Shown here: one piece after another, positions 46,327-63,878 of the stretch
Position numbering within the stretch: position 1 is the first letter of the stretch
How the letters are laid out: every line of letters begins with the position of its first letter
DNA from: Rhodoferax lacus
GTDB lineage: Bacteria > Pseudomonadota > Gammaproteobacteria > Burkholderiales > Burkholderiaceae_C
Direction of reading: 5' to 3'
DNA: 64,000 nt
NCBI RefSeq assembly: GCF_003415675.1
Contig: NZ_QFZK01000002.1
Location: 434,001 to 498,000, forward strand
Program-made: the position numbers and the translations under genes
The notes under the pieces: generated by a model
Told to the model about the DNA's origin: nothing
What the model saw: the letters and a program-made list of their open reading frames with translations, nothing else
Database searches by the model: none

Positions 46327-46338
46327 CAGGAGCCGGCC

Positions 46339-47325
46339 ATGTCAAGCATCGCGCCGCACTCCACTGCCGCAGCACCCCAGGTCGGCACCGCGCCAGCGCG
46401 CCGCGGCTGGCGCATCAAGCCCCAGCATGTGCCGTATCTGCTGGTCAGCCCGTTCCTCGTTCTGTTCCTGGTGTTTGGCGTCTTCCCGTTGGCGTTTTCG
46501 TTCTATCTGGCGTTCCAGACCTGGGAACCTACCGCCGGCCTGTCGAGCATGAAGTTTGTCGGCCTGGACAACTTTGCCTTCGCCATCAAGGACGAGTGGT
46601 TCCTGAAGTCGCTGCTCAACACGGCCTGGCTGGCCGTGGCTTCAGGGGTGCCGCAGCATGTGATCGCCATACCGCTGGCGTACTTCATCCACACCTCCTT
46701 CAAGCGTACGCGCAATGCCGTGATAGGGGCCTACTTTCTGCCCTACATCACCAGCACGGTGGCCATTGCCATGATGTTCGGCACGCTGTTTTCCACTGAC
46801 TACGGCATGATCAATATCGCCCTGCATGCGCTGTCGCAGGTGCCAGGCCTGGGCTGGCTGATATCAGGCGTGCCCATCGATTGGCTTAACCGCGCCGAGA
46901 ATGTCAAGCCTGCTGTGGCCATCGTGGTCTTCTGGCGCTACATCGGCTTCAACACCGTGCTGTATCTGGCAGCGCTGCAAACCATTCCCAAAGACATCTA
47001 CGAGGCCGCCACCATGGACGGCGCGCGCCGCCTGCAGCAGTTTTTTTACATCACGCTGCCCAGCCTCAAGCCCATGATTTATTTCGGTGTGACGCTCAGT
47101 GTGGTGGGTGGCCTGCAACTGTTTGAAGAACCCTTCATCCTCACCGGCGGGCGCGGTGGCACCGACCAGGCCGGCATGACCACGGCCATGTACATGTACC
47201 GCACGGCCTTTGAGTTCAATGACTTCGGTCTGGCCAGCGCACTGTCGTGGCTGTTCTTCGTGGTGGTGGCGCTGCTCACCTGGCTTACCAACCGCGCCTT
47301 CAAGCCGCGTGACAGCTCGCACTGA
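46339..47325 (+). CDS. Sugar ABC transporter permease (MalF type)
   Basis: This 328-residue permease has six hydrophobic segments and an EAA loop, IYEAATMDGARRLQQFFYIT, for contact with the ATPase. The start has a Pro/Ala-rich cytoplasmic tail and then VPYLLVSPFLVLFLVFGVFP. It begins 12 bases after the binding protein and is the first of a MalF/MalG pair. GGAG is seen at -11 to -8. Confidence 0.92.
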   Translation: MSSIAPHSTAAAPQVGTAPARRGWRIKPQHVPYLLVSPFLVLFLVFGVFPLAFSFYLAFQTWEPTAGLSSMKFVGLDNFAFAIKDEWFLKSLLNTAWLAVASGVPQHVIAIPLAYFIHTSFKRTRNAVIGAYFLPYITSTVAIAMMFGTLFSTDYGMINIALHALSQVPGLGWLISGVPIDWLNRAENVKPAVAIVVFWRYIGFNTVLYLAALQTIPKDIYEAATMDGARRLQQFFYITLPSLKPMIYFGVTLSVVGGLQLFEEPFILTGGRGGTDQAGMTTAMYMYRTAFEFNDFGLASALSWLFFVVVALLTWLTNRAFKPRDSSH

Positions 47326-47347
47326 GCGCACCGAGAGGACCCACACC

Positions 47348-48172
47348 ATGAACACCGAAAAACTCGCTCCACGCGCTGCCTATCTGCTGGTGGGCATTGG
47401 GGCACTCATCATGCTCACGCCCTTCTATTTCATGTTCGTGTTTGCCACGCATTCGCGGACTGAGATTTTCAACCTGCCGCCGCCGCTGTTTTTTGGTGAC
47501 AGCTTTCTGGTGAACCTGCAAATCCTCACCGACAAGATTCCGTTCTGGCGCAGCCTGGGTTGGAGCCTGTATGTGGCGCTGGCCTCCACGGCACTGACCT
47601 TGCTGTTCTGCTCCATGGGTGGCTATGCCTTTGCCATGTTCGAGTTCAAGGGCAAGCAGCCGCTGTTCCTGCTGGTGATGGGCACCATGCTGCTGCCGTC
47701 CTTCCTGGGCATGATTCCCACCTTCATGATCATGGATGCCTTTGGCTGGATCGACCAGCCACGCGCCCTCTACATTCCGGGCGCGGCCAGTGCCTTTGGC
47801 ATTTTCATGATGCGCCAGTTCATAGGCTCGTCCATCCCCAAGGACCTGATTGAGGCCGCGCGCATGGACGGCTGTGGCGAGTTGGGCATTTACTGGCGCA
47901 TCGTGCTGCCCCTGCTCAAGCCCGCCATGGGCACGCTGGGGCTGATCACCTTCATTGCCTCCTGGAACAACTTCATCGGTCCGCTGATCGTGATGCGCTC
48001 GCCCGAGATGTACACCTTGCCCCTGGCCCTGCGCAGCATGCAAAGCCCGGTGAACACCGAGTGGGGCGCTGTGATGGCCGGCTCGGCCATTGCCACGCTG
48101 CCGCTGCTGGTGCTGTTTGCCATTTCCTCGCGTCGGCTGATTGATGGCCTGACTGCGGGCGCCGTCAAGTAG
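47348..48172 (+). CDS. Sugar ABC transporter permease (MalG type)
   Basis: This 274-residue permease has the EAA loop LIEAARMDGCGELGIYWRIV and six helices. Start MNTEKLAPRAAYLLVGIGAL was chosen after the MalF stop with GAGAGG upstream. It completes the transporter channel. GH1 follows after 61 bases in the same direction. Confidence 0.92.
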   Translation: MNTEKLAPRAAYLLVGIGALIMLTPFYFMFVFATHSRTEIFNLPPPLFFGDSFLVNLQILTDKIPFWRSLGWSLYVALASTALTLLFCSMGGYAFAMFEFKGKQPLFLLVMGTMLLPSFLGMIPTFMIMDAFGWIDQPRALYIPGAASAFGIFMMRQFIGSSIPKDLIEAARMDGCGELGIYWRIVLPLLKPAMGTLGLITFIASWNNFIGPLIVMRSPEMYTLPLALRSMQSPVNTEWGAVMAGSAIATLPLLVLFAISSRRLIDGLTAGAVK

Positions 48173-48233
48173 GCCGCCGCAACGCGTGCCTGGGCGCCAG
48201 AGTCTTTTTCCATTCATTGCACTGACTGCTTTC

Positions 48234-49640
48234 ATGAACAAATTTCCCCAACCCACACTGGGTTCCACCTTCCCCGAAAAATTTGTCTGGGGAGTTGCCA
48301 CCAGTGCGTTCCAGATTGAGGGCGCAGCTTTTGCCGATGGCAAAGGGCCGTCCATCTGGGATGACTTCTGCAAGCAGCCCGGCGCCATTGCCGATGGCAG
48401 TGATGGCCTGCTTGCCTGCGAGCATTACCAACGCTGGCAGGACGACCTGGACCTGGTGGCCAGCCTGGGTGTGGATGCCTACCGCTTCTCGGTGTCCTGG
48501 CCGCGCGTGCGCCCAGGCGGTGCCGGTGCCTGGAACGAAAAAGGCCTGGACTTTTACGAGCGCCTGGTGGATGGCCTGCTGGCACGTGGCATAAAGCCCT
48601 ACCTCACGCTCAACCACTGGGACCTGCCCAGCGAGTTGCAGGCCACAGGTGGCTGGACCGACCGCAACACCGTGCACCGCTTTGTGGAGTACGCACAGGG
48701 CATTGACCGCCGCATGGGCGACCGGCTGGCCACCATCACCACCCACAACGAACCCTGGGTGATGTCGGTGCTGGGCTATGAGCAGGGCATCTTTGCACCC
48801 GGCATCAAGAGCCGCGCGGCTGCCATGCAGGCCTCGCACCACCTCATGCTCAGCCACGGTCTGGCATTGCAGGCCCTGCGCGCGCAGGGCAGCAAGGCGC
48901 GTCTGGGCATTGTGCTGAACCTGTCCCCCGTGCAGGCAGCCACCGATTCGGATGCAGACCAGGCGCAGGCCCACCTGGAAGACGGCAAGCTGCTGCGCTG
49001 GTATATGGACCCCTTGTTCAAAGGCCACTATCCGGAAGATGTGATCGGGCATCTGGGCGCCGATGCACCGGTGTTGCACACCGGGGATCTGGCAGCCATT
49101 GCCACACCCATGGACTTCATGGGGGTGAACTATTACTCGCGCTCGGTGGCCAGTGCCAATGGTCCCTGGGACACCCGGCAAAGCGGCCACCCGCTCACAG
49201 AAATGGGCTGGGAGGTCTACCCCGAAGGCCTGACCGAACTGCTGGTGCGCATGCATACCGATTACCCGGTGCCACCCTTGTACGTCACCGAAAACGGTGG
49301 CGCCTTCAAGGACCTGGTGCAGGACGGCCAGGTGCATGATGCCGACCGCACCGACTACATCGCCCGCCACATCGAGGCCGTGGCCCAGGCCATGCGGCAG
49401 GGCGTGCGCATGGAGGGCTATATGGTCTGGAGCCTGCTCGACAACTTCGAGTGGGCCTCCGGCTACGCCAAGCGCTTTGGCATCGTGCATGTGGACTACG
49501 CCACGCAAAAGCGCACGCTCAAGGACAGCGCGCACTGGTACTCCAACATGCTGCACGCCCGCAAAGGCAGGGCCGCAGCCGCATCCATCCCCCACAACAC
49601 GACCACACCCGCTGAGCAGGTGGCAACACAAGGAGCATAA
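48234..49640 (+). CDS. GH1 beta-glucosidase, cytoplasmic
   Basis: This 468-residue GH1 enzyme has no signal peptide. Acid/base Glu173 is in TTHNEPWVMS and nucleophile Glu353 in LYVTENGGAF. The N-terminal FPEKFVWGVATSAFQIEGA is the GH1 signature and YRFSVSWPRVRPGG the next conserved block. The C-terminal WSLLDNFEWASGYAKRFGIV is typical. It would remove glucose from the non-reducing end of imported oligosaccharides. It is placed between the permease and ATPase genes of the importer, which strongly links the two. The final 20 residues are a low-complexity tail. Confidence 0.94.
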   Translation: MNKFPQPTLGSTFPEKFVWGVATSAFQIEGAAFADGKGPSIWDDFCKQPGAIADGSDGLLACEHYQRWQDDLDLVASLGVDAYRFSVSWPRVRPGGAGAWNEKGLDFYERLVDGLLARGIKPYLTLNHWDLPSELQATGGWTDRNTVHRFVEYAQGIDRRMGDRLATITTHNEPWVMSVLGYEQGIFAPGIKSRAAAMQASHHLMLSHGLALQALRAQGSKARLGIVLNLSPVQAATDSDADQAQAHLEDGKLLRWYMDPLFKGHYPEDVIGHLGADAPVLHTGDLAAIATPMDFMGVNYYSRSVASANGPWDTRQSGHPLTEMGWEVYPEGLTELLVRMHTDYPVPPLYVTENGGAFKDLVQDGQVHDADRTDYIARHIEAVAQAMRQGVRMEGYMVWSLLDNFEWASGYAKRFGIVHVDYATQKRTLKDSAHWYSNMLHARKGRAAAASIPHNTTTPAEQVATQGA

Positions 49641-49642
49641 GA

Positions 49643-50698
49643 ATGGGACAAGTCAGCCTGAAAGGTTTGCGCAAGAGCTTTGGTGCCGTGGACGTCATAC
49701 GCGGCATTGACCTGGAAGTGCGCGATGGCGAGTTCATGGTATTCGTGGGCCAGTCGGGCTGCGGCAAGTCCACCACGCTGCGCATGATTGCCGGTCTGGA
49801 AACTATTACCTCTGGCGACTTGCTGATCGACGGCCAGCGCGCCAATGACCTGCACCCGGCGGACCGGGGTGCTGCCATGGTGTTCCAGAGCTACGCGCTG
49901 TACCCGCACATGACGGTGGCCGAGAACATGGGCTTTGCCCTGAAGATGGCCGGCGTGGACAAGGCCCAGCGCGAACAGCAGGTGGGCCGCGCCGCAGAAA
50001 TTTTGCGCATGACGGATTTGCTGGGCCGCTTTCCCAAGGAGCTCTCGGGTGGCCAGCGCCAGCGCGTGGCCATTGGCCGTGCGATCGTGCGCAAGCCCAA
50101 GGTGTTCTTGTTTGACGAGCCGCTCTCCAACCTGGACGCTGCCCTGCGCGTGGACATGCGCGTGGAGCTGTCGCGCCTGCATGCCGAGCTGGGCACCACC
50201 ATGATTTATGTCACCCACGACCAGGTCGAGGCCATGACACTGGGCGACCGCATTGCCGTGTTCAACAAGGGCTCCATCGAACAGCTGGGCGCACCGCTGG
50301 AACTGTACAACCGGCCTGCCACCGAATTTGTGGCCGCCTTTATTGGTGCACCGCGCATCAACCTGATAGACCGTCCGGCCGCCAACGCCACGCTCGCACA
50401 CCAAAGCCTGTGGAGCCGCTTGCAAGACGCGTCTGGCCAGATTGCCAAGCGCGTGGGCCTGCGCCCTGAGCACCTGCTGGTAACCACCCCCGAGCAGGGC
50501 GTACCCGCCCAGGTGGTGCTGGCCGAGCACCTGGGCGACTCGTCCATCATCCACCTGCGGGTGGACGGCGTGAACGGTTTGCTCAATGCCAAGGTGCCTG
50601 CCAACCAGTCGCATTGCAGCGCCGGGCAGACGGTGGGTCTGCTGCCTGATGCCAAATGGTCGCTGGGGTTTGGTGATGATGGCCGCCTGATGGCCTGA
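49643..50698 (+). CDS. Sugar ABC transporter ATPase (MalK/UgpC/MsmK type)
   Basis: This 351-residue ABC ATPase has Walker A GQSGCGKST, signature LSGGQRQRVAIGRAI, Walker B KVFLFDEPLSNLDAALRVDM and switch His in THDQVEAMTLG. The C-terminal roughly 110 residues form a TOBE/regulatory domain. It starts two bases after the GH1 stop. It completes the ABC importer of this operon, and is followed by three further hydrolase genes. It may also serve other importers, as MsmK does. Confidence 0.94.
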   Translation: MGQVSLKGLRKSFGAVDVIRGIDLEVRDGEFMVFVGQSGCGKSTTLRMIAGLETITSGDLLIDGQRANDLHPADRGAAMVFQSYALYPHMTVAENMGFALKMAGVDKAQREQQVGRAAEILRMTDLLGRFPKELSGGQRQRVAIGRAIVRKPKVFLFDEPLSNLDAALRVDMRVELSRLHAELGTTMIYVTHDQVEAMTLGDRIAVFNKGSIEQLGAPLELYNRPATEFVAAFIGAPRINLIDRPAANATLAHQSLWSRLQDASGQIAKRVGLRPEHLLVTTPEQGVPAQVVLAEHLGDSSIIHLRVDGVNGLLNAKVPANQSHCSAGQTVGLLPDAKWSLGFGDDGRLMA

Positions 50699-50717: not shown

Positions 50718-51641
50718 ATGGAACTGCTGAAGAACAAGCCTGCTGCTGCGCGCAGAACGGGCTGGAAGCTGGTGTGGCGTGACGAGTTCGATGGCGATTG
50801 TGTGGACCGCAGGAAGTGGGACTTTGACATCGGCAACGGCTTCTTCGACTACCACAGCCACACGTGGGTGCCGGGATGGGGCAACGAAGAGCTGCAGTAC
50901 TACACCGACTCACCCAACAATGTGTTCGTCAAGGATGGCGCCTTGCACATACGCGCCGTCAAGGAATCGCTGCACGGCTGCGGCTATACCTCGGCCCGAC
51001 TGAAAACACGCAAGCGCGATGGCAGCCCGCTGTTCAACCAGTGCTATGGCCGCTTTGAATTTCGCGCCAAGGTGCCTTGGGGCAAGGGCCTGTGGCCGGC
51101 GTTGTGGATGCTGCCGCAGGCAGACACCTACGGCCGCTGGGCTGCCTCGGGCGAGATCGACGTGATGGAGATTCATGGTGAAGAGCCCGACAAGACCCTG
51201 GGCTCCACACACTTCGGCTCCACCTACCCCAATCGCTCGCTGGTGACCCACACGCATCCGTTGCCCGCAGGCAGCCTGGTGAGTGACTGGCACGAGTACG
51301 CGGTGGAGTGGGAGCCCGGTGTGATCCGCTGGTACCTGGACGGCGTGCATTGGGCCACGCAGGACTTCTGGTGGAGCTGCAGTAAAACAAAAAGCGGCGC
51401 CGGTGTGGAAGCCCGCCGCGCGGCCGACATCAACCCCTGGCCGGCGCCCTTTGACCATCCGTTTTACCTGCTGATGAATGTGGCCGTGGGTGGCAACTTC
51501 CCCGGCAACCCGAACCCTGCCACGCAGTTCCCGGCCGAGCTGGTGGTGGACTATGTGCGCGTGTATGAGCGCGTGGGCGGCTACGCAGAGCCCAAGCCGC
51601 GAGGCAAGGGCCGCATGCCGTATGCCAAAAATAAATCCTGA
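50718..51641 (+). CDS. GH16 endo-beta-1,3-glucanase, no signal peptide
   Basis: This 307-residue GH16 enzyme has no recognisable signal or lipobox and starts MELLKNKPAAARRTGWKLVW. The catalytic motif GEIDVMEI places the nucleophile at Glu146, helper Asp148 and acid/base Glu151. WGNEELQYYTD and RFEFRAKVPWGKGLWPALWM are laminarinase-like family blocks. A family normally secreted is therefore predicted to be cytoplasmic here. It would shorten longer imported laminari-oligosaccharides. It follows the ATPase by 19 bases. Confidence 0.92.
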   Translation: MELLKNKPAAARRTGWKLVWRDEFDGDCVDRRKWDFDIGNGFFDYHSHTWVPGWGNEELQYYTDSPNNVFVKDGALHIRAVKESLHGCGYTSARLKTRKRDGSPLFNQCYGRFEFRAKVPWGKGLWPALWMLPQADTYGRWAASGEIDVMEIHGEEPDKTLGSTHFGSTYPNRSLVTHTHPLPAGSLVSDWHEYAVEWEPGVIRWYLDGVHWATQDFWWSCSKTKSGAGVEARRAADINPWPAPFDHPFYLLMNVAVGGNFPGNPNPATQFPAELVVDYVRVYERVGGYAEPKPRGKGRMPYAKNKS

Positions 51642-51658
51642 TTCATACCCTGATTGCC

Positions 51659-52594
51659 ATGTCACGAACCATTGCTTCTGAGCCTGGCGCCGCCTTCACA
51701 CCCGGCGCACCTTTCGCCAAGGGCGGCACGCCAAACGTGGCGCCCCTGGTCTTGCCAAAGACCGAACACGACCAACTGCTGCAGACCTTCCAGGCCCGCT
51801 TGCAAGCCCGCACGCATGGTCTGTGCTTCAGCCCTTATCTGGACGGGCAGGGGCCAGGCACGCAGCTGCACGAGCCGCAGATCCGCGCGCGCATGGAGGT
51901 GATTGCGCCGCACACGCGCTGGGTGCGCAGCTTCTCCTGCACCGAGGGCAACGAGCTGATTCCCAAGGTGGCCCACGACCTCGGCCTCAAGACGCTGGTT
52001 GGCGCCTGGCTGGGCACCGACCTGGAGATCAACGAGCGCGAGATCGAAGGCGTGATCGCGGTGGCCCGTGCAGGGCACGCCGATATCGTGGCCGTGGGCA
52101 ACGAGGTGATGCTGCGCGAAGACCTGAGCGAGGACGCGCTCATTGCCTACATCGAACGCGTCAAAGCCGCCTTGCCCGGCATACGCGTGGGCTATGTGGA
52201 TGCCTATTATTTGTTTGAGCTGCACCCGCGCATCACCGCCGCCTGCGATGTGCTGCTGACCAATTGCTACCCTTTCTGGGAAGGCTGCCCGCTGGACCAG
52301 GCACTGCCCTATATGCACAGCATGGTCCGCCGCACACAGGCCGTGGCACAGGGCAAGCAGGTCATCATCAGCGAGACCGGCTGGCCCGACAAGGGCACCA
52401 ACTTCTGGGGCGCCGTGCCTTCACCGGATGCAGCCCTGCGTTACTTCACCGACACCTGCGCCTGGGCCGAAACGGACGGTGTGGAGGTGTTCTACTTTGC
52501 CGCCTTTGACGAGGCCTGGAAGGTAGGCGCCGAAGGGGACGTAGGCGCCTACTGGGGCCTGTGGGACAAGGACGCGCAGGCCAAATACCGATGA
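51659..52594 (+). CDS. GH17-like beta-1,3-glucan hydrolase, no signal peptide
   Basis: This 311-residue TIM-barrel glycosidase is of the GH17 type. Predicted acid/base Glu149 is in IVAVGNEVMLRE and nucleophile Glu239 in VIISETGWPDKG, both typical for GH17. The start MSRTIASEPGAAFTPG has no hydrophobic segment. YAYYL-like VGYVDAYYLFELHP and FAAFDEAWKVGAEG complete the barrel. It may act as an endo- or exo-beta-1,3-glucanase or a transglycosylase. It overlaps the next GH17 gene by four bases. Confidence 0.88.
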   Translation: MSRTIASEPGAAFTPGAPFAKGGTPNVAPLVLPKTEHDQLLQTFQARLQARTHGLCFSPYLDGQGPGTQLHEPQIRARMEVIAPHTRWVRSFSCTEGNELIPKVAHDLGLKTLVGAWLGTDLEINEREIEGVIAVARAGHADIVAVGNEVMLREDLSEDALIAYIERVKAALPGIRVGYVDAYYLFELHPRITAACDVLLTNCYPFWEGCPLDQALPYMHSMVRRTQAVAQGKQVIISETGWPDKGTNFWGAVPSPDAALRYFTDTCAWAETDGVEVFYFAAFDEAWKVGAEGDVGAYWGLWDKDAQAKYR

Positions 52595-53514
52595 GAAGCA
52601 CCTTCCCATTTCCAGCGGGCAACGCCATTTGCTACTCGGGCTACCGGCGTGACCAAAGCCCCGACAACAAGACCTATCCATCGCTTGCAGAAATCCGCGA
52701 AGACCTGGCCCTGCTGAGCCAGCACTGGCGCTACATGCGCCTGTATGACTGCAGCTTGCATGCCGAGCGTGTGCTGCAAGTCATCCAGGAGGACGGGCTG
52801 GATTTGCAGGTCATGCTAGGCGCCTACCTGGGTGCCGAGATGAACAACTTTGGCTGCCCCTGGGGCGGCACCTACAGCGAAGAGGCACTGGAGTCCAGCA
52901 CACGAGCCAACCAGGTCGAACTGGAAAAGCTGGTGACCCTGGCCAATACCTACCCACAGATTGTGTTTTCCGTGGCGGTGGGCAATGAGGCCACGGTGGA
53001 CTGGACCGACCACTTTGTGCCGGTGGCCCACATGGTTGCGTACGTGCGTTGGGTCAAGGCGCGCATTGCGCAGCCAGTGACCTTTTGCGAGAACTACGTG
53101 CCCTGGCAGCACAAGCTGCGCGATCTGGTGCCCGAGGTGGACTTCATCTCCCTCCACACCTACCCGGTGTGGGAGTACAAGTACATCCACGAGGCGCTGG
53201 AATACACCAAAGACAATGTGCACAGCGTGGCGCGCCTGTACCCCGGCAAGCCCATCGTCATCACCGAAGCCGGCTGGGCCACCAACTCCAACGGCCGCGG
53301 CATACAACCCGAGAACGTGTCCCAGCATCTACAGGCCGTGTACTACGAAGACCTGATGCGCTGGTCGCGCGAGAGCGGCATGCTGGTGTTTGTGTTCGAA
53401 GCCTTTGACGAGCCCTGGAAAGGCTCACCCGACCCGCTGGAGCCGGAGAAGCATTGGGGGCTGTTTGATGTGGACAGAAGGCCGAAATTGGTGATGCAGG
53501 AGTTGTTTGCATAA
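52591..53514 (+). CDS. Second GH17-like hydrolase, no signal peptide
   Basis: This 307-residue GH17-type enzyme has acid/base Glu133 in SVAVGNEATVDW and nucleophile Glu226 in IVITEAGWATNS, plus VFEAFDEPWKG near the end. N-terminus MRSTFPFPAGNAICYSGYRR starts directly in the catalytic domain. The start was set at the Met that overlaps the preceding stop (ATGA). It is a distinct paralog of the upstream enzyme. It ends eight bases before the convergent GH30 gene. Confidence 0.88.
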   Translation: MRSTFPFPAGNAICYSGYRRDQSPDNKTYPSLAEIREDLALLSQHWRYMRLYDCSLHAERVLQVIQEDGLDLQVMLGAYLGAEMNNFGCPWGGTYSEEALESSTRANQVELEKLVTLANTYPQIVFSVAVGNEATVDWTDHFVPVAHMVAYVRWVKARIAQPVTFCENYVPWQHKLRDLVPEVDFISLHTYPVWEYKYIHEALEYTKDNVHSVARLYPGKPIVITEAGWATNSNGRGIQPENVSQHLQAVYYEDLMRWSRESGMLVFVFEAFDEPWKGSPDPLEPEKHWGLFDVDRRPKLVMQELFA

Positions 53515-53522
53515 GGGAAGGA

Positions 53523-54869
53523 CTAGAGGACGTAGCTCGCAATAGCCCGTGGCGGCAAGCAAATAGCCCAACGCATGCCTCGGATTTTTATATCGAACGG
53601 CACCTCGTTTTCACTTCGGTTCATCACCACCACCACCACCGTCTGGTCCGGATTCAGCAAAGCGGTGCACTCCAGCACCTCCCGGGTGGCCGCACACAAA
53701 ATGCGCCGCGCACCGGGGCGGACAAAGCGTGAGAAATGCCCGATGTAGGTGTAGGAGACTTGTGGCAACACCAGATCATTTTCGGTGTCGGCCAACAGCG
53801 GGGCGCTGCAGTAGTTGCCAACATGGTTGGGGCCGCCCTGGGTGTCGAGCAACAGGTTCCAGTCAATCCAGCCCACGGTCCAACGGTTCAGGTCGTTGAT
53901 CATGGAGCAGGCGTATCGCTCGCCCACTTCCCACTCGCCGGTATGGGGGCCGCCCTCCTGGCAGCCCTCGGTGAACAGCAGTCTTTTGTCCGGCCAGGCA
54001 TCGTGCACCAGCTGCACATGCTCAAAGTGGTCTTCCACATACCAGTGAAAGCCCGTGCCCCACACGTAGCGCGCGGCTTGCGGATCGGACAACACCACGC
54101 TGGCACGCTCTACCATCTCGTCCCGGTTGTGGTCCCACACGATGATGCGCACGTGTTGCAGACCTGCCTGCTCCAGCGCAGGGCCCAGATGGTCGCGTAC
54201 AAAGTCGCGTTCTTCCTCGGCGCTGTAGACGCAAGAGTCCCAACGCTGCACGGCCATGGGCTCGTTCTGCACCGATACGCCCCACACGGGCACACCTTCT
54301 TCGGCATAGGCCTGTATGAATTTGACGTAGCACTGTGCCCAGGCCGCGCGGTACTGCGGCAGCAGCTTGCCGCCATGGTTCATCTGCCCATTGCTCTTCA
54401 TCCACGCAGGCGGGCTCCATGGAGACACCAGCAATTTGAGTGGTGTACCCGCCACCTGCTGCGCGGCCTTGATGAAGGGCAGCAGGGCCTGCCGGTCCCG
54501 TTCAATCGTGAAGTGTTCCAGCGGGACGTCATCGTGCACTTCGGCGTGGGCATAGTTTCCCAATGCAAAGTCACAGCTGTTCATGTGCACACGACACAGG
54601 GTGTAGCCATGCCCGGCCTTCGGGTCGAAGTAGGCCCGCAGCACCTGAGCGCGCTGCACGTCACCCAGCTTGAGCCAGGTCACGGCAGCCGCTTCGGTGA
54701 ACGCACCGCCAAAGCCCTCGATCTCCTGAAAGGCTTTGTCAGGGTTGACCCACACCACTGGCCCTGTGCCATCGGTTGAATCGGTTGACACGATCGGAAA
54801 CTGTTCTTCCAGCGAAGTGCCACGGTGCTTGGCTGACAAGTAGCTGCGCAGGTAGGTAGGTGATGTCAC
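53523..54869 (-). CDS. GH30 family glucanase (beta-1,6 type likely), cytoplasmic
   Basis: This roughly 448-residue GH30 enzyme has acid/base Glu203 in VSVQNEPMAVQ and nucleophile Glu301 in LFTEGCQEGG. The N-terminal IEGFGGAFTEAAAVTW and VSPWSPPAWMKSNGQM are GH30 signatures. GH30 includes beta-1,6-glucanases, which would cut laminarin side branches; subfamily was not resolved. There is no signal peptide. I chose a GTG start (TSPTYLRSYLS) with AGGAAA eight bases upstream; the ATG 25 codons earlier has no good site. An 18-base operator lies 98 bases upstream. Confidence 0.88.
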   Translation of the reverse strand: MTSPTYLRSYLSAKHRGTSLEEQFPIVSTDSTDGTGPVVWVNPDKAFQEIEGFGGAFTEAAAVTWLKLGDVQRAQVLRAYFDPKAGHGYTLCRVHMNSCDFALGNYAHAEVHDDVPLEHFTIERDRQALLPFIKAAQQVAGTPLKLLVSPWSPPAWMKSNGQMNHGGKLLPQYRAAWAQCYVKFIQAYAEEGVPVWGVSVQNEPMAVQRWDSCVYSAEEERDFVRDHLGPALEQAGLQHVRIIVWDHNRDEMVERASVVLSDPQAARYVWGTGFHWYVEDHFEHVQLVHDAWPDKRLLFTEGCQEGGPHTGEWEVGERYACSMINDLNRWTVGWIDWNLLLDTQGGPNHVGNYCSAPLLADTENDLVLPQVSYTYIGHFSRFVRPGARRILCAATREVLECTALLNPDQTVVVVVMNRSENEVPFDIKIRGMRWAICLPPRAIASYVL

Positions 54870-54966
54870 GTGCAATTTCCTGATTGGTGTGCGGGCGGTG
54901 GGTAAAGCCGATCCGGCTAAGGGAAACACCCTATTCGAATGCAAAGAGAAACCCTTAAGATCGTTT

Positions 54967-54984
54967 TATGAAAGCGCTTTCATA
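54967..54984. promoter_or_regulatory. Perfect 18-bp operator between GH30 and the lipoprotein
   Basis: TATGAAAGCGCTTTCATA is a perfect 18-base palindrome containing the TGAAAGCGCTTTCA core. It sits between two divergent genes, 98 bases from the GH30 start and 70 bases from the lipoprotein start, so one site may control both. Confidence 0.88.
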
Positions 54985-55053: not shown

Positions 55054-57297
55054 ATGAAATTTTCACAACACAGAATTCCCCTGACAGCGCTCAGCCTGGC
55101 CACAGCCGCATTGATTTCAGCATGCGGCGGTGGCGGCTCTGGCACTACGGCAACCACCTTGTCCGGTGCCGTTATTGATGGTTATGTAAAGGGAGCCACA
55201 GTGTGTCTGGACGTGAACTCCAACCGCGCCTGTGACACTGGGGAACCCTCGGCCACTACCGATGTCAAAGGCGCATACAGCATCACCGTTCCCGCAGGTA
55301 CAAGCACCAGTGGCTTGCATCTGATAGCAGTGGTACCGGTGGGGGCGTTCGACAGTGATGCACCATCCACTCCGATCGCCAATGCCTACAAGATGATGGC
55401 GCCGGTAGATATGCCAACAGTTATTTCGCCTCTGACGACGGCAGTCTCGGCAGAGATGATCGTCAATGGCAAGTCCACTGCGAATGCGCGTATTGATGTA
55501 CGGTCCGCTCTGGCGCTGCCCGTCGGCTATGACTTTGCGAAAGACCACGTCGCGACAGCAACGCGGGACATTCCCGCGGGCAACGTAGCGAAGGTGATGG
55601 CCGCCATCCTGGCCGTCAAGGTCGGAACGGGCACGCCTGATGCGACATCGCTGGGCCTTGCCTTGGCGCAAATCAAGACAGGAACGACTGCCGCTGATGC
55701 TTACGCGAGCAGCGATGTGAGTGGTGTGGTGAGTGGTATCTTGGGAACGCCAACGCCAACGCCAACGCCAACGCCAACGCCAACGCCAACGCCAACGCCA
55801 AGCTCTGGCACGGTGATCGCGGACTTCGACACCGTCCTCGCGACCAATGTGGCGGACACCAATGGCGGCACCGGCAGTGTCTCCGCAACCCCGCCTGCGG
55901 GTGGTGGCGCGGGCTCGGCCTATGCACTGCTGCGTTCGGGGGGACAGTCTTACGCACTAGGGCTTCTGCAAACCACGGCGGTGCCTTTCACGGCTACTCG
56001 CAAAACCATTTCGGCACGTGTCTACTCTCCCACCGCCGGCATTCCGATGGTGCTCAAGCTCGAGAACAGGGCCTCTGCTGGCGCCATCTCTACTGGCGAC
56101 ACACAGGCCAACGAAGCCGTCGTCGTCGGCTGGCAGACCCTGACTTGGACCCTCAACGCCGATCTCACCAAGACATACGACTTGATCGTGCTGCTACCCA
56201 ACCTGAATACGGTCGATGTTGCCCCAGGCAAGACCTATTACTTCGACGACATCACGTTAAATGCCGCCGCTTCGCCAACACCCACACCGACACCGACGCC
56301 GACACCAACGCCGACCAACTTGGTAGCCAATGGTGATTTCACCAGTGCCGCGGCTGATGCAAACTGGTACGGCAACGCCAAAAATGTCCAAACGACTAGT
56401 GGTAACAGCTATAACGAGGCCAATGTAGCTACAGCAGGCAATGCTTATGATGTGAATCTTTCGTACAAAGTTAGTATTCCCACTTCAGGGGTCAGCTACA
56501 AACTGCGGTTTAAAGTTTCGTCAAACCGTGCTAGAACAATGCTTGCTGGTATTGGCCAGCAGGGCGCTCCCTACGGCGCTGTTGTTCAGACTGTCAACCT
56601 CACTACGACCCAACAGACTATTGAGCTGAGTCTGACATCCAACTTTGCTGACACTAACAGCCGCGTGATTTTCGATATGGGCGCTGATACAGGGCAGGTA
56701 GTGATTGATGATGTAGAGTTGGTACTGAATACAACACCCGCACCTACCCCCACTCCCGCCCCTTCCGGTGGACCCACCGCTGCAGCGTCGGTGCCGACTG
56801 CATTGGCTGGCAATGTGAAGTCGATATTTAGTGACACCTATACTAGCGTTACGGTGGATGAGTGGGGACCAGACTGGGGCGTCAGTTCGTCACGGATAAC
56901 CGATGGGGCTATAGCAGGTAACAACTATAAAACTATTGATGTTTCAGCTGGAAAAACGTTTGCAGGCATTTCATTCGTTAGCAACAAATTTGATGCAACC
57001 ACCTATGCAACGTTCAATATGGATTACTGGATCGACACACCCATACTTGCGGGGCAAGTAATTAGCATCAAGCTATCGAACCACAATGGAACTGGGGAAA
57101 CCAGTGCCGTTGAAAGCACGGTCACAAGTATCACCGGTGGTAGCTGGCAACGGATCTCGATCCCATTGAATTCCTTTACGCAAGCGGCAACCAGCCTGAG
57201 CAGAAACAACATTGCGCAAGTTATTCTCACTGCCTCAAGGGCTGACGGTGCGCAGCCCGTTAAGATTTATATGGATAACTTGTATTTCGGTAAATAA
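55054..57297 (+). CDS. Surface glycan-binding lipoprotein with three CBM-like modules
   Basis: This 747-residue lipoprotein has signal MKFSQHRIPLTALSLATAAL with lipobox ISAC at Cys24 and a Gly-rich tether. An N-terminal domain of about 190 residues (TLSGAVIDGYVKGATVCLDV onward) follows, then three beta-sandwich-like modules at about 253-407, 423-560 and 574-747. Modules are joined by (Pro-Thr)n linkers at about 231-250, 408-422 and 560-573. The middle one, NLVANGDFTSAAADANWYGN, resembles CBM4/9-type domains. No catalytic motif is seen. It would hold the polymer near the cell, like a SusD/E-type protein in Bacteroidota. The gene is in the same regulon by its operator. Confidence 0.82.
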   Translation: MKFSQHRIPLTALSLATAALISACGGGGSGTTATTLSGAVIDGYVKGATVCLDVNSNRACDTGEPSATTDVKGAYSITVPAGTSTSGLHLIAVVPVGAFDSDAPSTPIANAYKMMAPVDMPTVISPLTTAVSAEMIVNGKSTANARIDVRSALALPVGYDFAKDHVATATRDIPAGNVAKVMAAILAVKVGTGTPDATSLGLALAQIKTGTTAADAYASSDVSGVVSGILGTPTPTPTPTPTPTPTPTPSSGTVIADFDTVLATNVADTNGGTGSVSATPPAGGGAGSAYALLRSGGQSYALGLLQTTAVPFTATRKTISARVYSPTAGIPMVLKLENRASAGAISTGDTQANEAVVVGWQTLTWTLNADLTKTYDLIVLLPNLNTVDVAPGKTYYFDDITLNAAASPTPTPTPTPTPTPTNLVANGDFTSAAADANWYGNAKNVQTTSGNSYNEANVATAGNAYDVNLSYKVSIPTSGVSYKLRFKVSSNRARTMLAGIGQQGAPYGAVVQTVNLTTTQQTIELSLTSNFADTNSRVIFDMGADTGQVVIDDVELVLNTTPAPTPTPAPSGGPTAAASVPTALAGNVKSIFSDTYTSVTVDEWGPDWGVSSSRITDGAIAGNNYKTIDVSAGKTFAGISFVSNKFDATTYATFNMDYWIDTPILAGQVISIKLSNHNGTGETSAVESTVTSITGGSWQRISIPLNSFTQAATSLSRNNIAQVILTASRADGAQPVKIYMDNLYFGK
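55747..55800 (+). repeat. Hexanucleotide tandem repeat coding a Thr-Pro linker
   Basis: Nine exact copies of a 6-base unit (ACGCCA) encode Thr-Pro repeats. Copy changes keep the reading frame and would alter linker length only. Confidence 0.95.
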
Positions 57298-57323
57298 GCG
57301 GCAACCAATCAATGGGCTGAAAG

Positions 57324-57360
57324 GACGCCGACTGTAATACTCAGTCGGCGTCTTTGCTTT
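57324..57360 (+). terminator. Terminator behind the CBM lipoprotein
   Basis: GACGCCGACTG (57324-57334) and CAGTCGGCGTC (57342-57352) are perfect 11-base arms around TAATACT, followed by TTTGCTTT. It separates the CBM lipoprotein from the GH16 lipoprotein. Confidence 0.85.
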
Positions 57361-57475: not shown

Positions 57476-59137
57476 ATGCCGACCTCACTTCGCAGAAAAA
57501 TGCCACAGCGCCTACTATTGACTTCTATCATTGCAATCTATTGCATTGCCAGCCTCCTGGGCTGTGGTGGCGGCGGCGGTGGTGGAGCTTCATTTGCTGC
57601 TTCACCGGCATCCGTTGCTTCGTCCACCGGTGTGTTCCTGGACAGTACGGTTCAAGGCCTGCGCTACGACACCGCTACGCAGCATGGAGAAACCGATGCG
57701 AATGGCCAGTTCAAGTATCTGGCCGGAGAGTCGGTCACGTTTTCAGTTGGTAACTTGGTGCTGGCCAGCACGCCTGGCAAGAGCCTCATCACACCATTGG
57801 ACATCGCAGGCACCACCAACGTGGCTGATCAACGCGTGACTAACATGTTGGTATTGCTGCAGAGCCTGGACGCCGATGGCAATACCAGCAATGGCATCGC
57901 CATCCCAGCTGCGGCATCTGCCGCCGCACCGACTGGAATCGACTTCGATGTGTCGCCCACTGCATTCAGATCGATGGCAGCCATCACTACCTTCCTTGCC
58001 AATGCGGTGGGAGCAAGCCGGCAAATAGTGTCGGCTGCAGACGCAGACCTCCACTTTCAGAATAGTTTGAATACGGGCCTGGGTGGCACCAAGATCAACA
58101 TCGCACCTTTTGCCATTGCAGGAACAACGCAAAGCGTTGCACAAGGCAGCGCCGCGCAACTGGATGGCAGGGCAAGCGGAGATGCCAATGGCGATACCCT
58201 TTCGTACCAATGGTCTGTAGTCAGCAGGCCTGCAGGCAGCGTGGCGGTGCTCACCGGGGCCACCACGGCCACGCCCAGCCTGGTGGCGGATGCTCCGGGC
58301 GACTACCTGCTGGGCTTGATGGTCAGCGATGGTGTACTGTCCAGCCCGATATCGGTCGTGAAGGTCAGCGCCACGGCACCCAACAGCGTGCCCAGCGGCT
58401 ATGCCCTGGTGTGGTCGGATGAATTCAACACCAGTGGAATCCAGTTGCCTGACCCCAGCAAATGGAGCTATGACATCGCACAAAACAAAGTGGGCTGGTT
58501 CAATGGTGAACTGCAGTATTACGCCAATGGCCGACTACAAAACTCCGCTGTGCAAAACGGCAGCCTCACCATAACGGCACGCAGGGAAAGTCTGGCCGCT
58601 TCGGTAAGCGACTGGGGAGGGCAGAACTACACTTCTGCGCGGCTGTTTACCAAGGGCAAGTCCAGCTGGACCTACGGCTTTTTTGAGATACGCGCCAAGC
58701 TGCCTTGCGGTGCGGGCACCTGGCCTGCCATCTGGACCCTGGGCTCAACAGTAGACGTGTGGCCCGACCAGGGCGAGATCGACATCATGGAGCAGACCGG
58801 ATGGGACAAGGGCACTGTGTTGGGCACCATCCACACGCTGGCGGGCTCTGGCGGCAATGGCAGCACCGGATCGACCGCCTTGGCAACGGCCTGCAACGCT
58901 TTCCACAATTTCCAGATCAAGTGGACTCCGACAGCCATCGACTTCTATGTGGATGGCGTCTCTTACAGGCCCACCTACAACAAACCCGTCAATGCATCTG
59001 GATGGCCGTTCGACAAGCCCCAGTATCTGTTGTTGAACGTGGCCGTGGGCGGTGTGCTGGGTGGCACGGTCAATGACGCGACCCTGTCCAATACGGGCTT
59101 GGAGGTGGATTACGTGCGGGTGTACCAAATACGCTGA
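57476..59137 (+). CDS. GH16 laminarinase-like lipoprotein
   Basis: This 553-residue lipoprotein has a signal (LLLTSIIAIYCIASLLGC) with lipobox Cys30 followed by seven Gly. Region 1 (to about 205) starts GVFLDSTVQGLRYDTATQHG, a beta-rich domain common in surface proteins. Region 2 is PKD-like (NGDTLSYQWSVVSRPAGSVA), and the C-terminus is a GH16 domain with catalytic DQGEIDIMEQTG (Glu434, Asp436, Glu439). WSDEFNTSG and YGFFEIRAKLPCGAGTWPAI are GH16 marks. It likely cuts beta-1,3-glucan at the cell surface. An alternative start is 24 bases downstream. No operator copy lies before it. Confidence 0.9.
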   Translation: MPTSLRRKMPQRLLLTSIIAIYCIASLLGCGGGGGGGASFAASPASVASSTGVFLDSTVQGLRYDTATQHGETDANGQFKYLAGESVTFSVGNLVLASTPGKSLITPLDIAGTTNVADQRVTNMLVLLQSLDADGNTSNGIAIPAAASAAAPTGIDFDVSPTAFRSMAAITTFLANAVGASRQIVSAADADLHFQNSLNTGLGGTKINIAPFAIAGTTQSVAQGSAAQLDGRASGDANGDTLSYQWSVVSRPAGSVAVLTGATTATPSLVADAPGDYLLGLMVSDGVLSSPISVVKVSATAPNSVPSGYALVWSDEFNTSGIQLPDPSKWSYDIAQNKVGWFNGELQYYANGRLQNSAVQNGSLTITARRESLAASVSDWGGQNYTSARLFTKGKSSWTYGFFEIRAKLPCGAGTWPAIWTLGSTVDVWPDQGEIDIMEQTGWDKGTVLGTIHTLAGSGGNGSTGSTALATACNAFHNFQIKWTPTAIDFYVDGVSYRPTYNKPVNASGWPFDKPQYLLLNVAVGGVLGGTVNDATLSNTGLEVDYVRVYQIR

Positions 59138-60009: not shown

Positions 60010-62271
60010 TTACATCCGCCCCAACGTGCCCGCCGCCACCGTCAACGTCTTGCCATCGCTGTACTTCACCGTGATGGGCGTCTTACCCGCGTTGTAGGCC
60101 AGGTAGGTGCGCTGGCCATTGGCTTGCTTGAACACGGCGAACAGCGTGGTGTTGGCCGTCACGCTGAAGTCGGGCGTGCCCATTTCCTTGAGGCTTTGCA
60201 ACCAGTGCAGGGCGTGCGTGCGGGTGTCGCCCAGCTCAAACGAGCCCCAGCGGTTCCATGAGGCCAGGCCTGCATCCGGGTCGGCCAGGCCCAGGTACTT
60301 GGCAAAGATGTCCTGCCAGATATCGACTGGCTTGCCGTACAGGCCGCGGGCGTTCCAGATGGCGGTCTCCGGGCCCAGTGAGGCCACGCTCTTCTTCACA
60401 AACGCAGGGTCTTGGCCCAGGTAGGTAGAGACGGTGGTGATGGGCAGCAGGTTGATGCCCTTGATCTGGCGCGGGTCGTCAATCCACCAGGTGTTGTGGG
60501 CGTACATGCCGCCAAACAGCATGCTGACCTCTACATTCTTGTACTCCGGGGCAAAGACCTTCCCGTGGATGTCAAACCAGTAGTGGTTGATGGCGTTGAT
60601 TTCAGTGGTGTACATGTACAGGCCCAGGTCGCGCAGCGCCCGGTTGCCCTTGATCTCGCCCCACAGAATCAGCCCGGCCCAGGCGTTGACGGCCTCGGAA
60701 GAAGATTCCTGGTTGTTGCCCAACTCGCCCATGCCAATGCCGGAGGCCCAGGAGTGGCCTTCATAGGGGTCAAAGTTGCGCAGGAAGGGGAACTTGGCGT
60801 TGCTGCGGTCGGTGCTGGCAATGTCGGCAACCAGCAGGTCCACCATGGGACCCCATTGCGCGTCCGAAGCCCATTTGGGGTCGCGCAGGGCAATGTCGGC
60901 CGCAGCGCGTATCCAGTAGCCGTAGGTGAAGTGGTGGTCATTGAGCTGCTCCACTGTGAAGAACTCTTCCGGGTAGCTGGCCACCGTGCCCTGCTGGGTG
61001 TCGTAATGGAAGTAGCCGCCGCCTTCGCCGGTGAACCACGATTCCGCGCGCTTCTTCACCAGGTCCAGCAACTTGTCACGGCCTTCCAGGTCGCCTTGCT
61101 GTTCGACCACATCCATGAGTTTCAGGATGCGCTGCAAGCCCTTGCCCTGCCAGTAGGGGCCTTTGCCCTCTTCCAGCATCATGCGCCGGGCATTGCGTTG
61201 GTCCAGTTTCATGAGCTCGGCCAACTCGGTCTTGCGGCCAGCGTCGGCCACACCGGGCCAGAACGGCACGAAGCCGGTGTAACGGGCCGTGGTTTTGAAG
61301 CTGTCGGCCTCCAGCAAGCGGATCTTGCCGCGCACCGTGTCATAGGCCGGTCCCAGGCGCGGCTCTACTGTCGCATTGTTAAACCACTGATGGGGGTACA
61401 GGCCCAGCAGCGCGCCGGTGACCGGGCCTTCCATGGTTTGGGTGGTGGCGGTGAAGGTGGTTTCTATCTGGCTGGAGGCTTCATCAAACTTCCAGTCCAC
61501 CCGTGTGTCTTGCACAAAGGAATAGGCGTGCTTGGCCAGCAGGGCCAGGGTCTCGGGCTTGTCGTCCGGCAATGCGGCCACCGACAAATAGCCCTTGCCC
61601 GGGGGCAGGTGCAGCAGCCATTGGTCGGCTCCGCTGGGCTTCCAGTCACCGCCCGTAGGGCCAAACACGGCATAGCTGGCCGCCGTGGTTTGAACCAGCA
61701 GCATGCGGGCATCGGCGGCGCTGACAGCGGCCTTGGAGCCTGCTGGAATTTTGATCTGCGCATCCCCCCGGCCAATTTGCACAAAGGCATAGGGCATGCC
61801 ATGGGCCATGCCTACGGTCATGTTGTCTGCGCCCTGGGCCATGGAAATGTCCGCCGACCAGTCGCCGTGTTTGGCGAGCTTGGACTGACCCGGCTGAAAG
61901 GCTGCGGGCGCAATCAGCAGCGGCAACTGGTGGGGGTAGCGAATCTCCACATCACGGCGCACCGTGGGGCGAACTTCCTTGACCGGTAGCGCCACTTCCA
62001 GCCCTGCCGCTGTGGGTTTGACGGTCAGAGGCTGCACAAAGAGTGCTTCGGGCTTGGCGCTGTAGACCACGCTGGAATACCACTGCGCGGATTGTGCCGG
62101 TGTGTTGGCCAAGGCGGCTGTGCGCAGGTTGGCTGGCGGCACCGTGCGGTCACCACTCTTGGGGGCAGTGTAGTAGCTCCCCATTCCCAGCTTCACGGTT
62201 TGTGCCTGCACCGTGGCAAAGGCCAGTGAGGCCAGGGTCAGTTGGAGGCAAGAGCGCGTCAGCTTGTTCAT
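60010..62271 (-). CDS. GH81 endo-beta-1,3-glucanase, secreted
   Basis: This 753-residue GH81 enzyme has a signal MNKLTRSCLQLTLASLAFATVQA. The family's catalytic region is present near residues 500-530: YEGHSWASGIGMGELGNN followed by QESSSEAVNAWAGL with the Glu residues. YPHQWFNN and FNDHHFTYGYWIRAAA-like NDHHFTYGYW are other signatures. GH81 cuts internal beta-1,3 bonds in insoluble or triple-helical glucans such as fungal wall or laminarin. A perfect operator lies 42 bases upstream. The enzyme is predicted periplasmic or secreted. Confidence 0.93.
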   Translation of the reverse strand: MNKLTRSCLQLTLASLAFATVQAQTVKLGMGSYYTAPKSGDRTVPPANLRTAALANTPAQSAQWYSSVVYSAKPEALFVQPLTVKPTAAGLEVALPVKEVRPTVRRDVEIRYPHQLPLLIAPAAFQPGQSKLAKHGDWSADISMAQGADNMTVGMAHGMPYAFVQIGRGDAQIKIPAGSKAAVSAADARMLLVQTTAASYAVFGPTGGDWKPSGADQWLLHLPPGKGYLSVAALPDDKPETLALLAKHAYSFVQDTRVDWKFDEASSQIETTFTATTQTMEGPVTGALLGLYPHQWFNNATVEPRLGPAYDTVRGKIRLLEADSFKTTARYTGFVPFWPGVADAGRKTELAELMKLDQRNARRMMLEEGKGPYWQGKGLQRILKLMDVVEQQGDLEGRDKLLDLVKKRAESWFTGEGGGYFHYDTQQGTVASYPEEFFTVEQLNDHHFTYGYWIRAAADIALRDPKWASDAQWGPMVDLLVADIASTDRSNAKFPFLRNFDPYEGHSWASGIGMGELGNNQESSSEAVNAWAGLILWGEIKGNRALRDLGLYMYTTEINAINHYWFDIHGKVFAPEYKNVEVSMLFGGMYAHNTWWIDDPRQIKGINLLPITTVSTYLGQDPAFVKKSVASLGPETAIWNARGLYGKPVDIWQDIFAKYLGLADPDAGLASWNRWGSFELGDTRTHALHWLQSLKEMGTPDFSVTANTTLFAVFKQANGQRTYLAYNAGKTPITVKYSDGKTLTVAAGTLGRM

Positions 62272-62312
62272 CGCCGGATCCTGTTCAGGTTGAAGTGGTT
62301 CCGCCATGATAC

Positions 62313-62326
62313 TGAAAGCGCTTTCA
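62313..62326 (-). promoter_or_regulatory. Operator before the GH81/P4H unit
   Basis: A perfect TGAAAGCGCTTTCA lies 42 bases upstream of the GH81 start. A second, different palindrome CGGGTTAACCCG (62336-62347) is ten bases further upstream. Confidence 0.85.
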
Positions 62327-62335
62327 AAATTGGCA

Positions 62336-62347
62336 CGGGTTAACCCG
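62336..62347. promoter_or_regulatory. Unassigned 12-bp palindrome in the GH81-porin intergenic region
   Basis: CGGGTTAACCCG is a perfect palindrome in the divergent region between GH81 and the porin. It is distinct from the LacI-type site and may bind another regulator. Confidence 0.4.
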
Positions 62348-62406
62348 AATTTTCTCTGCGGGATCACTAATCAGCAGGGCTAGGGAAAACACGGGGGCGG
62401 TTTTGA

Positions 62407-62468: not shown

Positions 62469-63878
62469 ATGAAAAACCGAATCAAACCATGTGTCTTTGG
62501 ACGGATCCCGGCCTCTCAGGTTCGGCGCACAAGGGCATCGGGCGCTCTGAAAGCCACCGCTGCAGCCGCCATGTTGCTGGGTGCGACCCTGAGCCACGCA
62601 CTGGATTTTGGTCCGGACGGCATGTTCAGTCTCACCGGCTTTGCCGAGGCCACGGTAGGCGTGCAGGGGAACTATTGCCTGAACTGCCAGGTGGTGCCCG
62701 ACACGGTGTCCAAGCAGCTGCGTGTTGCCGATGCCATCATTCCTGGAAAGCACTACGAGACCGTCACCACCACCAATTGGCAAATCCAGCCCTATCTGGG
62801 TGCCAAGTACAACCTGGGCAATGGTTTTGAACTATCGGGTCTGCTGAGCCAGCGCTGGCGCCAGGGAACCATCAACGGCGCCTTCGTCGAGACGCGCTAC
62901 GGTGGCACGGTGGATGTGCCCGATTTTTGGTACGAGAAGAACATTGCAATTCGCCACGAAGACTACGGCAGTGTGCGCATAGGCTCCATGACCACCCGCG
63001 GCTGGAGCGTGGCTGACTTTCCATACGGCGGCAACCTGGGTGTGTCCGATTCCTGGGGTTCCAGCGGCGCGGGCTACGGCATGCTGACCAATGCCATCCG
63101 CCTGGGCAGCCGCCAATTGGATGTGGCCGAAGGCGATTTGTTTCTGGAACTGACCTATGACCAGGGCAATGACCACTTCAAGCGCCTGAGCCCGCAGTTC
63201 TATGAGTTGTACGCGCAGTTCCACAAGGGCGACCTGGTGGTTGATGCGGTCTATCAGGATGCGGTCAACGGTGGTGCCGGTGCCTGGGGCCATGCACCGT
63301 TTACGGGTGTGACACCTTATGCCCAGGATGACAGCTTTGTCGGCACAAACGGGGCGCAGTTCAGTGGCACCCACCAAAACATCGCCATGGTCATGGCGCG
63401 CTACCAGGTCAACGCGAAGGTTGAAGTGTCCGGCGGCATCCGCCAAAACAAGTGGAGTGGCGCCAACGTTGCCTACAACCCCGCTGACAACTGGACCAGC
63501 GGCTTCAATGTGGACTACAGCAACCCGCTGGCCATAAGCCCACCGGGATACGCGGCGTCGTCGGTAGACTTTTTCCTGGGCGGGCGCTATCGCACCGGCC
63601 CATGGACCTTCTTCACGGCCATGGTCTTTTTGGGCGAAGCCGAGACCAAAAACCCCAGCGACCGCGGCCAGCACAACACGGCGACCATCAACACCTTGGG
63701 TGCCAAGTACGACTATGCACCCGGACTGCAGTTGGAGGCCACGGCAGGCATGGTGAATTACGGCAGGAAGGGGCTTTCGCCCATGTCGATGCCCGGCAAC
63801 GCCTCGTTCAGCAATGTGGATTCCCGCATTTCACAAGATGGTCAGTGGGTGACCGTTGGAATGATTTACAGCTTCTAA
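62469..63878 (+). CDS. Outer-membrane porin (glycan-locus associated)
   Basis: This 469-residue beta-barrel protein has a long signal peptide ending LGATLSHA at residue 44. Mature sequence shows alternating amphipathic strands (LTGFAEATVGVQG, EDYGSVRIGSMTTRGW, YELYAQFHKGDLVVDAVYQD). It ends VTVGMIYSF with the terminal Phe needed by the Bam machinery. It resembles Burkholderiales porins but is not a close general OmpC-type. Being under the glucan operator suggests it admits oligosaccharides. Start Met at 62469 precedes a basic N-region. Confidence 0.85.
   Translation: MKNRIKPCVFGRIPASQVRRTRASGALKATAAAAMLLGATLSHALDFGPDGMFSLTGFAEATVGVQGNYCLNCQVVPDTVSKQLRVADAIIPGKHYETVTTTNWQIQPYLGAKYNLGNGFELSGLLSQRWRQGTINGAFVETRYGGTVDVPDFWYEKNIAIRHEDYGSVRIGSMTTRGWSVADFPYGGNLGVSDSWGSSGAGYGMLTNAIRLGSRQLDVAEGDLFLELTYDQGNDHFKRLSPQFYELYAQFHKGDLVVDAVYQDAVNGGAGAWGHAPFTGVTPYAQDDSFVGTNGAQFSGTHQNIAMVMARYQVNAKVEVSGGIRQNKWSGANVAYNPADNWTSGFNVDYSNPLAISPPGYAASSVDFFLGGRYRTGPWTFFTAMVFLGEAETKNPSDRGQHNTATINTLGAKYDYAPGLQLEATAGMVNYGRKGLSPMSMPGNASFSNVDSRISQDGQWVTVGMIYSF

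Follow-up and report, generated by a model that had tools for sequence, protein, structure and literature searches.

A modular lipoprotein of a Rhodoferax lacus beta-glucan locus carries a predicted relative of a laminarin-binding CBM

Algae store large amounts of carbon in laminarin-type glucans, whose capture has been described mainly in Bacteroidota with SusC/SusD. SusD is a helical protein, and SusE and SusF are non-catalytic glycan-binding proteins with CBM-like sandwiches. Extracts of published work describe two such proteins: BfSGBP-B of Bacteroidota, which binds laminarin (PMC11345257), and CHU_1279, an SGBP-B-like protein needed for Cytophaga cellulose use (PMC12016534). A third extract describes gammaproteobacterial Woeseiaceae laminarin loci without SusD, seven laminarin PULs having a single SusC (PMC12175321). 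The term 'carbohydrate-binding' is absent from the text of that paper, which names no such lipoprotein under that word.

The DNA analysed here, a 64,000-nucleotide stretch of the Rhodoferax lacus genome (the window), contains a beta-glucan locus with a gene for a large modular lipoprotein, P0001 (Table 1). The first-pass annotation had proposed this protein as a possible SusD/SGBP analogue. P0001 is a lipoprotein in a glycan-use locus, as SusD is, but SusD is helical and the modules of P0001 are all-beta. SusD_RagB (PF07980) gave 0 matches in the R. lacus genome and none in P0001 in a search whose Bacteroides control was positive. No TonB-dependent receptor (PF00593) was found beside the locus; the genome has six, and the only one on the same contig is some 125 kb away from the LacI gene of the locus and 136 kb away from the gene of P0001. 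P0001 was rejected as a SusD because of the missing SusD_RagB match in the genome, the missing adjacent TonB receptor and the beta-sandwich modules, and this half of the proposal fell. The SGBP half stood, through the architecture of the protein and the predicted kinship of its module M1 with a laminarin-binding module. Like SGBP-B, SusE and SusF of Bacteroidota, P0001 would be a non-catalytic glycan binder with CBM-like sandwiches in a hydrolase locus. Unlike them, it occurs without SusC/SusD, has a LacI operator and ABC import in its locus and begins with a different N domain. CHU_1279 would be a functional parallel. The Woeseiaceae loci of the third extract share the absence of SusD with the Rhodoferax locus and differ from it in the single SusC of seven PULs. 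Among our own sequences, two Woeseiaceae contigs (L056 and L057) carried M1 lipoproteins, in L057 with M3 too, beside GH16 and GH17. Directly after the M1-M1-M3-M3-M1 lipoprotein of L057 comes a protein (P0002, L057:12360-15623) with a glycosidase-like N part and, by eye, an apparent C-terminal beta-barrel; it had no Pfam match at E 0.001. The remark that betaproteobacterial surface glycan-binding proteins are hardly described fits our searches of the open-licence literature, with none among the matches listed.

Table 1. Features of the beta-glucan locus (positions in the window)
Feature	Position	Strand	Basis
LacI-family regulator	43897..44949	+	Pfam
Sugar ABC transporter (binding protein, two permeases, ATPase) with a GH1 gene in between	45049..50698	+	operator at 45006
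GH16 and two GH17 genes	50718..53514	+	domain matches
GH30, divergent from the lipoprotein gene	53523..54944	-	Pfam
Palindromic LacI-family operator TGAAAGCGCTTTCA, 71 bp before the lipoprotein ATG	54969-54982		perfect match
Modular lipoprotein gene (P0001)	55054..57297	+	open frame, 747 aa
Lipoprotein signal peptide, lipobox ISAC at its end, Cys24 then GGGGS	55054..55125	+	by eye
N domain, about residues 25-230	55126..55743	+	sequence relatives
Thr/Pro linker 1	55744..55797	+	low-complexity sequence
Module M1, residues 249-405, predicted relative of the solved laminarin-binding CBM X584 (8QX6)	55807..56271	+	profile and fold
Thr/Pro linker 2	56272..56316	+	low-complexity sequence
Module M2, residues 422-560, CBM_4_9	56317..56733	+	Pfam above cut-off
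Module M3, residues 573-747, putative CBM-like beta-sandwich	56770..57294	+	sub-threshold Pfam and low-confidence model
Terminator-like stem-loop, 14 pairs, 3' of the lipoprotein gene	57321..57355	+	consensus match
Second poly-Gly lipoprotein: PKD and GH16	57476..59137	+	domain matches
2OG-Fe(II) oxygenase within the glucan locus	59147-59995	-	domain match
GH81 family protein	60010..62367	-	operator at 62313
Outer-membrane beta-barrel-like protein	62469..63878	+	by eye and weak matches of relatives; operator at 62438

The 747-aa frame bore out the architecture first read from it, namely a lipobox, an N-terminal domain and three different modules on Pro-Thr linkers. The signal peptide and lipobox (LISAC/GGGGS) were assigned by eye from the motif, from which a lipid anchor is predicted. 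A lipobox was present in 31 of the 35 frames bearing M1, M2 or M3, with CGGG after it in 27 of the 35. Three low-complexity Thr/Pro linkers set apart the N domain, M1, M2 and M3, and sequence comparison of relatives placed the modules in three separate families. The reported lack of a catalytic motif was likewise reproduced, as neither Pfam nor NCBIfam gave a match to a catalytic domain. All five Pfam rows were non-catalytic, and the sole NCBIfam row, cellobiosidase CelK, scored 21.6 bits versus a cut-off of 1700 and was confined to the CBM part (residues 443-556). By its domain content, P0001 is predicted to be non-catalytic. The stem-loop behind the gene is a consensus match only, at a chance level of 2.9 sites per whole stretch.

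The main new information is the predicted relation of M1 to a solved laminarin-binding CBM. When a profile made from an alignment of 55 M1 copies was compared with the PDB, 8qx6 came first with an E value of 2.5e-19. The next matches were 1gui, a laminarinase 16A module (2.2e-5), and 1w9s, from BH0236 (0.0076), which we take to be beta-1,3-glucan binders as well. Three more rows, NanS-p and two xylanase modules, had E values of 0.05 to 0.2. Single M1 copies mostly had no Pfam match (CBM_35_2 in 5 of 55 and CBM_4_9 in 2 of 55), and the M1 of the window alone had none at E 0.01. An AlphaFold2 model, for which the window copy and 30 copies from relatives were the input, had a mean pLDDT of 92.8 and was all beta except for one short helical turn. 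The top Foldseek match to this model was 8qx6, which is titled 'Novel laminarin-binding CBM X584'. VIA-align gave a Z of 15.4 for the model and 8qx6, with an rmsd of 2.6 over 140 residues, and a Z of 12.9 for the runner-up. Further fold matches included many other jelly-roll CBMs, among them truncated SGBP-B (7kwc), and the fold alone would therefore leave the ligand of M1 unsettled. What sets 8qx6 apart is its match to the sequence profile and its lead in Z. Profile and fold together point to membership of M1 in the X584 laminarin-binding CBM family, at only about 20% identity to 8QX6 itself. The latter is named a 'PKD domain-containing protein', presumably comes from a Bacteroidota, and is assigned laminarin as its ligand by the PDB title. 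In contrast to 8QX6, M1 sits in Burkholderiales lipoproteins, often in tandem and beside GH81. Two residues, W109 and D147, were invariant in the alignment of M1 copies; they look structural rather than ligand-binding.

M2 is a predicted CBM4-type module. It matched Pfam CBM_4_9 at 3.2e-7 (31.2 bits, above the cut-off of 25.9) and the N-terminal module of C. fimi endoglucanase C (1ulo) at E 7.6e-4, with a GQxGAPYG stretch kept. Counted by hand, Tyr507 of M2 is aligned with Tyr85 of the C. fimi module, which presumably has a binding role. A sub-threshold Endotoxin_C row also fell over M2. The Pfam matches of M3 (SGBP_B_XBD, Exop_C and CBM30) were all sub-threshold. Membership of P0001 in SGBP_B_XBD (PF18329) was rejected, as M3 scored 22.3 bits, under the cut-off of 26.4; at E 0.01, this family was matched by 1 of the 11 M3 copies in the gathered loci, window included. 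The M3 profile gave nothing better than E 0.07 in the PDB. The M3 model was weak (pLDDT 67.4), and its fold matches, at Z 9 to 11 with many tied rows and some non-CBM rows, included CBM families 11, 30 and 29 and the ExoP C-terminal domain. Going partly by entry titles, CBM30, CBM11 and CBM29 are beta-glucan or mannan binders. M3 can be called a CBM-like sandwich with low confidence. The modules had been described as sandwich-like, which agrees with the model for M1 and with the sequence for M2 and is carried over to M3 at that low confidence. The accompanying claim of glycan binding gained support by homology, from M1 to 8qx6 and from M2 to CBM_4_9.

Relatives were seen in Limnohabitans, Hydrogenophaga, Rubrivivax and Comamonadaceae records. 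They usually retained the N domain and M1 and exchanged the C-terminal modules. In this gene slot or one much like it, the order was N-M1-M2-M3 in the window, N-M1-M3 in L059, N-M1-M1-T1 in L060 and N-M1-T1 in L058 and L062. The N domain was unmatched in some M1 lipoproteins, e.g., L064, L065 and L067-L070. It also occurs in lipoproteins whose C-terminal parts are unrelated, such as alpha/beta hydrolases and a cytochrome c, and therefore resembles a general base for lipoproteins more than a glucan-binding domain. R. lacus itself has a second lipoprotein with this domain, 38% identical (L002/L005, G000:C30:79406-80014), whose C-terminal part had no Pfam match at E 0.01. Two of the exchanged modules are T1, of about 230 aa with 10 members (A6; e.g., L060:12169-12879 and L058:7124-7753), and T2, of about 260 aa with 7 members (A7; e.g., L047:12542-13336). 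Neither had a sequence match in Pfam at E values of up to 0.1 or in the PDB at up to 1, and both are possible new CBM families.

The GQxGAPYG stretch kept in M2 and the resemblance of the M3 model to CBM30, CBM11 and CBM29 could also mean that M2 and M3 set the specificity, with mixed-linkage beta-1,3/1,4-glucan or cellulose as the target and M1 as a vestige. This seems very unlikely to us since M1 is the module that relatives retain, frequently duplicated or triplicated, whereas M2 was found in 2 loci only. In addition, GH81 and GH17 are beta-1,3-glucan families. We favor a beta-1,3-glucan held through M1, and homology suggests laminarin or another glucan of this kind from algae or fungi.

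The association of M1 with GH81 was followed across genomes. In a set of 299 genomes from the family, GH81 occurred in 21 and M1 in 13; both were present in 12, GH81 only in 9 and M1 only in 1. The two scans were taken as the same 299-genome draw because the genome labels agree. Co-occurrence had an odds ratio of 369 and a Fisher P of 4e-15, whose significance is overstated because the genomes share descent and are not independent. The nearest domain-to-domain gap between M1 and GH81 was 0.7-4.6 kb in 12 of 12 genomes. The M1-only genome (G381) had a weak match (E 2.6e-8), and G359 had two extra M1 matches on a contig without GH81. The M1 profile came partly from nine of the 299 genomes and the window's own, which had been found with P0001 alone and not with GH81; G328 and G359 were outside the profile, yet they showed the same linkage. 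A class-wide draw had M1 at E 1e-8 in 5 of 369 genomes, R. lacus included. We also collected 28 distinct M1 loci by similarity to P0001, i.e., not at random, and found relatives of GH81, GH16, GH17 or GH30 in 22 of them and GH81 in 17. Four of the six loci without such relatives (L048, L049, L050, L052, L054/L073 and L072) are contig pieces of <10 kb; the other two, L048 and L050, are 13-15 kb.

The lipoprotein gene had been said to be controlled by the same operator as the hydrolases, and the site at 54969 matches it perfectly. Perfect TGAAAGCGCTTTCA sites occur four times in the 4.9-Mb genome, all in the beta-glucan locus, at 45006, 54969, 62313 and 62438; the gene starts downstream of them are those of the ABC operon, the lipoprotein, GH81 and the barrel protein, respectively. 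Two more sites, with one mismatch, are on other contigs. With up to 2 mismatches, 5 sites were found in the window versus 0.14 expected. A two-mismatch operator, TGAAAACGCTTACA, lies upstream of the LacI gene at 43860-43873, possibly for autoregulation. The LacI-family protein of the locus is presumed to read the predicted operator. Since the 54969 site is between the divergent GH30 and lipoprotein genes, it could serve both. A search for sigma-70 promoters before the lipoprotein gene found 0, with 1.7 expected by chance.

In relatives, the region from -60 to 300 bp from the predicted start was scanned, and an operator (up to 1 mismatch) preceded 20 of the 31 genes, window included, that encode M1/M2/M3 lipoproteins and have a recognisable start. 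As the start we guessed the first Met ahead of the lipobox, and the site in L047 and L065 therefore overlaps the guessed start. The 31 genes include one contig counted twice (L054/L073) and leave out L049 and L066:11985-13931, which have no recognisable start, and the short M1 fragments at contig ends, L048:2-907 and L052:2-1039. Among the 11 genes with no operator upstream, three are second genes of tandem pairs (L045, L051 and L071) and three belong to gammaproteobacterial loci outside Burkholderiales (L053, L056 and L057); the remaining ones are in L048, L052, L054/L073 and L072.

Most neighbors of the lipoprotein gene are listed in Table 1. One of the two GH17 genes (52561-53514) scored 27.9 bits, just below the cut-off of 28.2, and a poly-Gly lipoprotein just beyond the window end has a sub-threshold GH17 (23.2 bits, same cut-off). 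The position of the 2OG-Fe(II) oxygenase is kept in L058 and L062. Just beyond the window there are also genes of cellulose synthesis, BcsG and a PilZ-domain glycosyltransferase, with an intervening HDOD protein (L003:15893-19905). Multivalent CBM proteins can be adhesins. With these cellulose-synthesis genes just past the locus and M2 similar to the N-terminal CBM4 of an endoglucanase, P0001 could chiefly serve to attach cells to surfaces that bear glucan, such as the walls of algae or fungi or their own exopolysaccharide, instead of feeding uptake. We regard this as improbable because the operator common to the lipoprotein, uptake and hydrolase genes and the GH81 linkage in all 12 genomes with both domains tie P0001 to glucan consumption. 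Furthermore, no operator with up to 2 mismatches was found near the bcs genes in L003.

For the barrel-like protein starting at 62469, Pfam gave no match at E values of up to 1, and a sequence search of the PDB was negative as well. Weak outer-membrane barrel matches were seen for two of four relatives. When 13 copies, from the window and 12 loci, were aligned, they shared 41-75% identity with the window copy and many columns were invariant; the gene adjoins GH81. The protein is a candidate porin for glucan oligosaccharides. BLASTP gave no homology between it and the barrel-like half of P0002. If it is a porin, it would pass oligosaccharides only, so that cutting and capture would take place outside.

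In our reading, P0001 is probably an outer-membrane multi-CBM lipoprotein that keeps beta-1,3-glucan near the cell while exported glucanases cut it, and it would face outward. The genome has a type II secretion GspD (604 bits, cut-off 351), the neighboring GH16 lipoprotein begins with the same poly-Gly stretch as P0001, and pullulanase and SslE are precedents for surface lipoproteins exported by this system. By default, the Lol pathway leaves a lipoprotein anchored in the inner leaflet. A search of the genome for the Slam family gave no match, and none of its controls matched either. P0001 could thus face the periplasm and buffer imported gluco-oligosaccharides for the ABC transporter or periplasmic hydrolases. 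This arrangement is unlikely since four domains on Thr/Pro linkers with chain-type CBM4-like modules would fit an outside polymer and not short sugars, the ABC system already has a binding protein of its own, and entry of the porin type would imply cutting outside.

A surface-exposed P0001 suggests the following mechanism. When glucan is sensed, the LacI regulator would come off all four perfect sites (45006, 54969, 62313 and 62438), and joint expression of the ABC transporter, hydrolases, lipoprotein and barrel protein would follow. P0001 would be exported, lipidated at Cys24 and moved outside, perhaps via type II secretion. M1 would bind beta-1,3-glucan, as homology and fold indicate, and M2 and M3, on a weaker basis, may add avidity or extend binding to stretches with mixed or beta-1,4 linkages. 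Shortening of the glucan chain would fall to the GH81 enzyme together with the GH16-PKD and GH17-type lipoproteins. Oligosaccharides would pass the outer membrane via the barrel protein and then the ABC transporter, to be finished by GH1 and by those other hydrolases that show no clear signal peptide. P0001 would thereby fill the part of SGBP-B, SusE and SusF, without SusC or SusD.

We tentatively propose, as a possibility somewhat short of an even chance, that Burkholderiales have a SusCD-free form of glucan capture. A LacI-run lipoprotein with a fixed N domain and M1 and swappable C-terminal modules, a conserved barrel and surface GH17/GH16 lipoproteins would together be the counterpart of SusC/SusD, with T1 and T2 as new CBM families. 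The R. lacus locus offers such a counterpart in Burkholderiales for testing; it comprises a laminarin-CBM-like lipoprotein, a porin candidate and a conserved operator. If 8QX6 is from Bacteroidota, the X584-type module would be extended to another phylum, and the exchanged C-terminal modules may add new CBM families.
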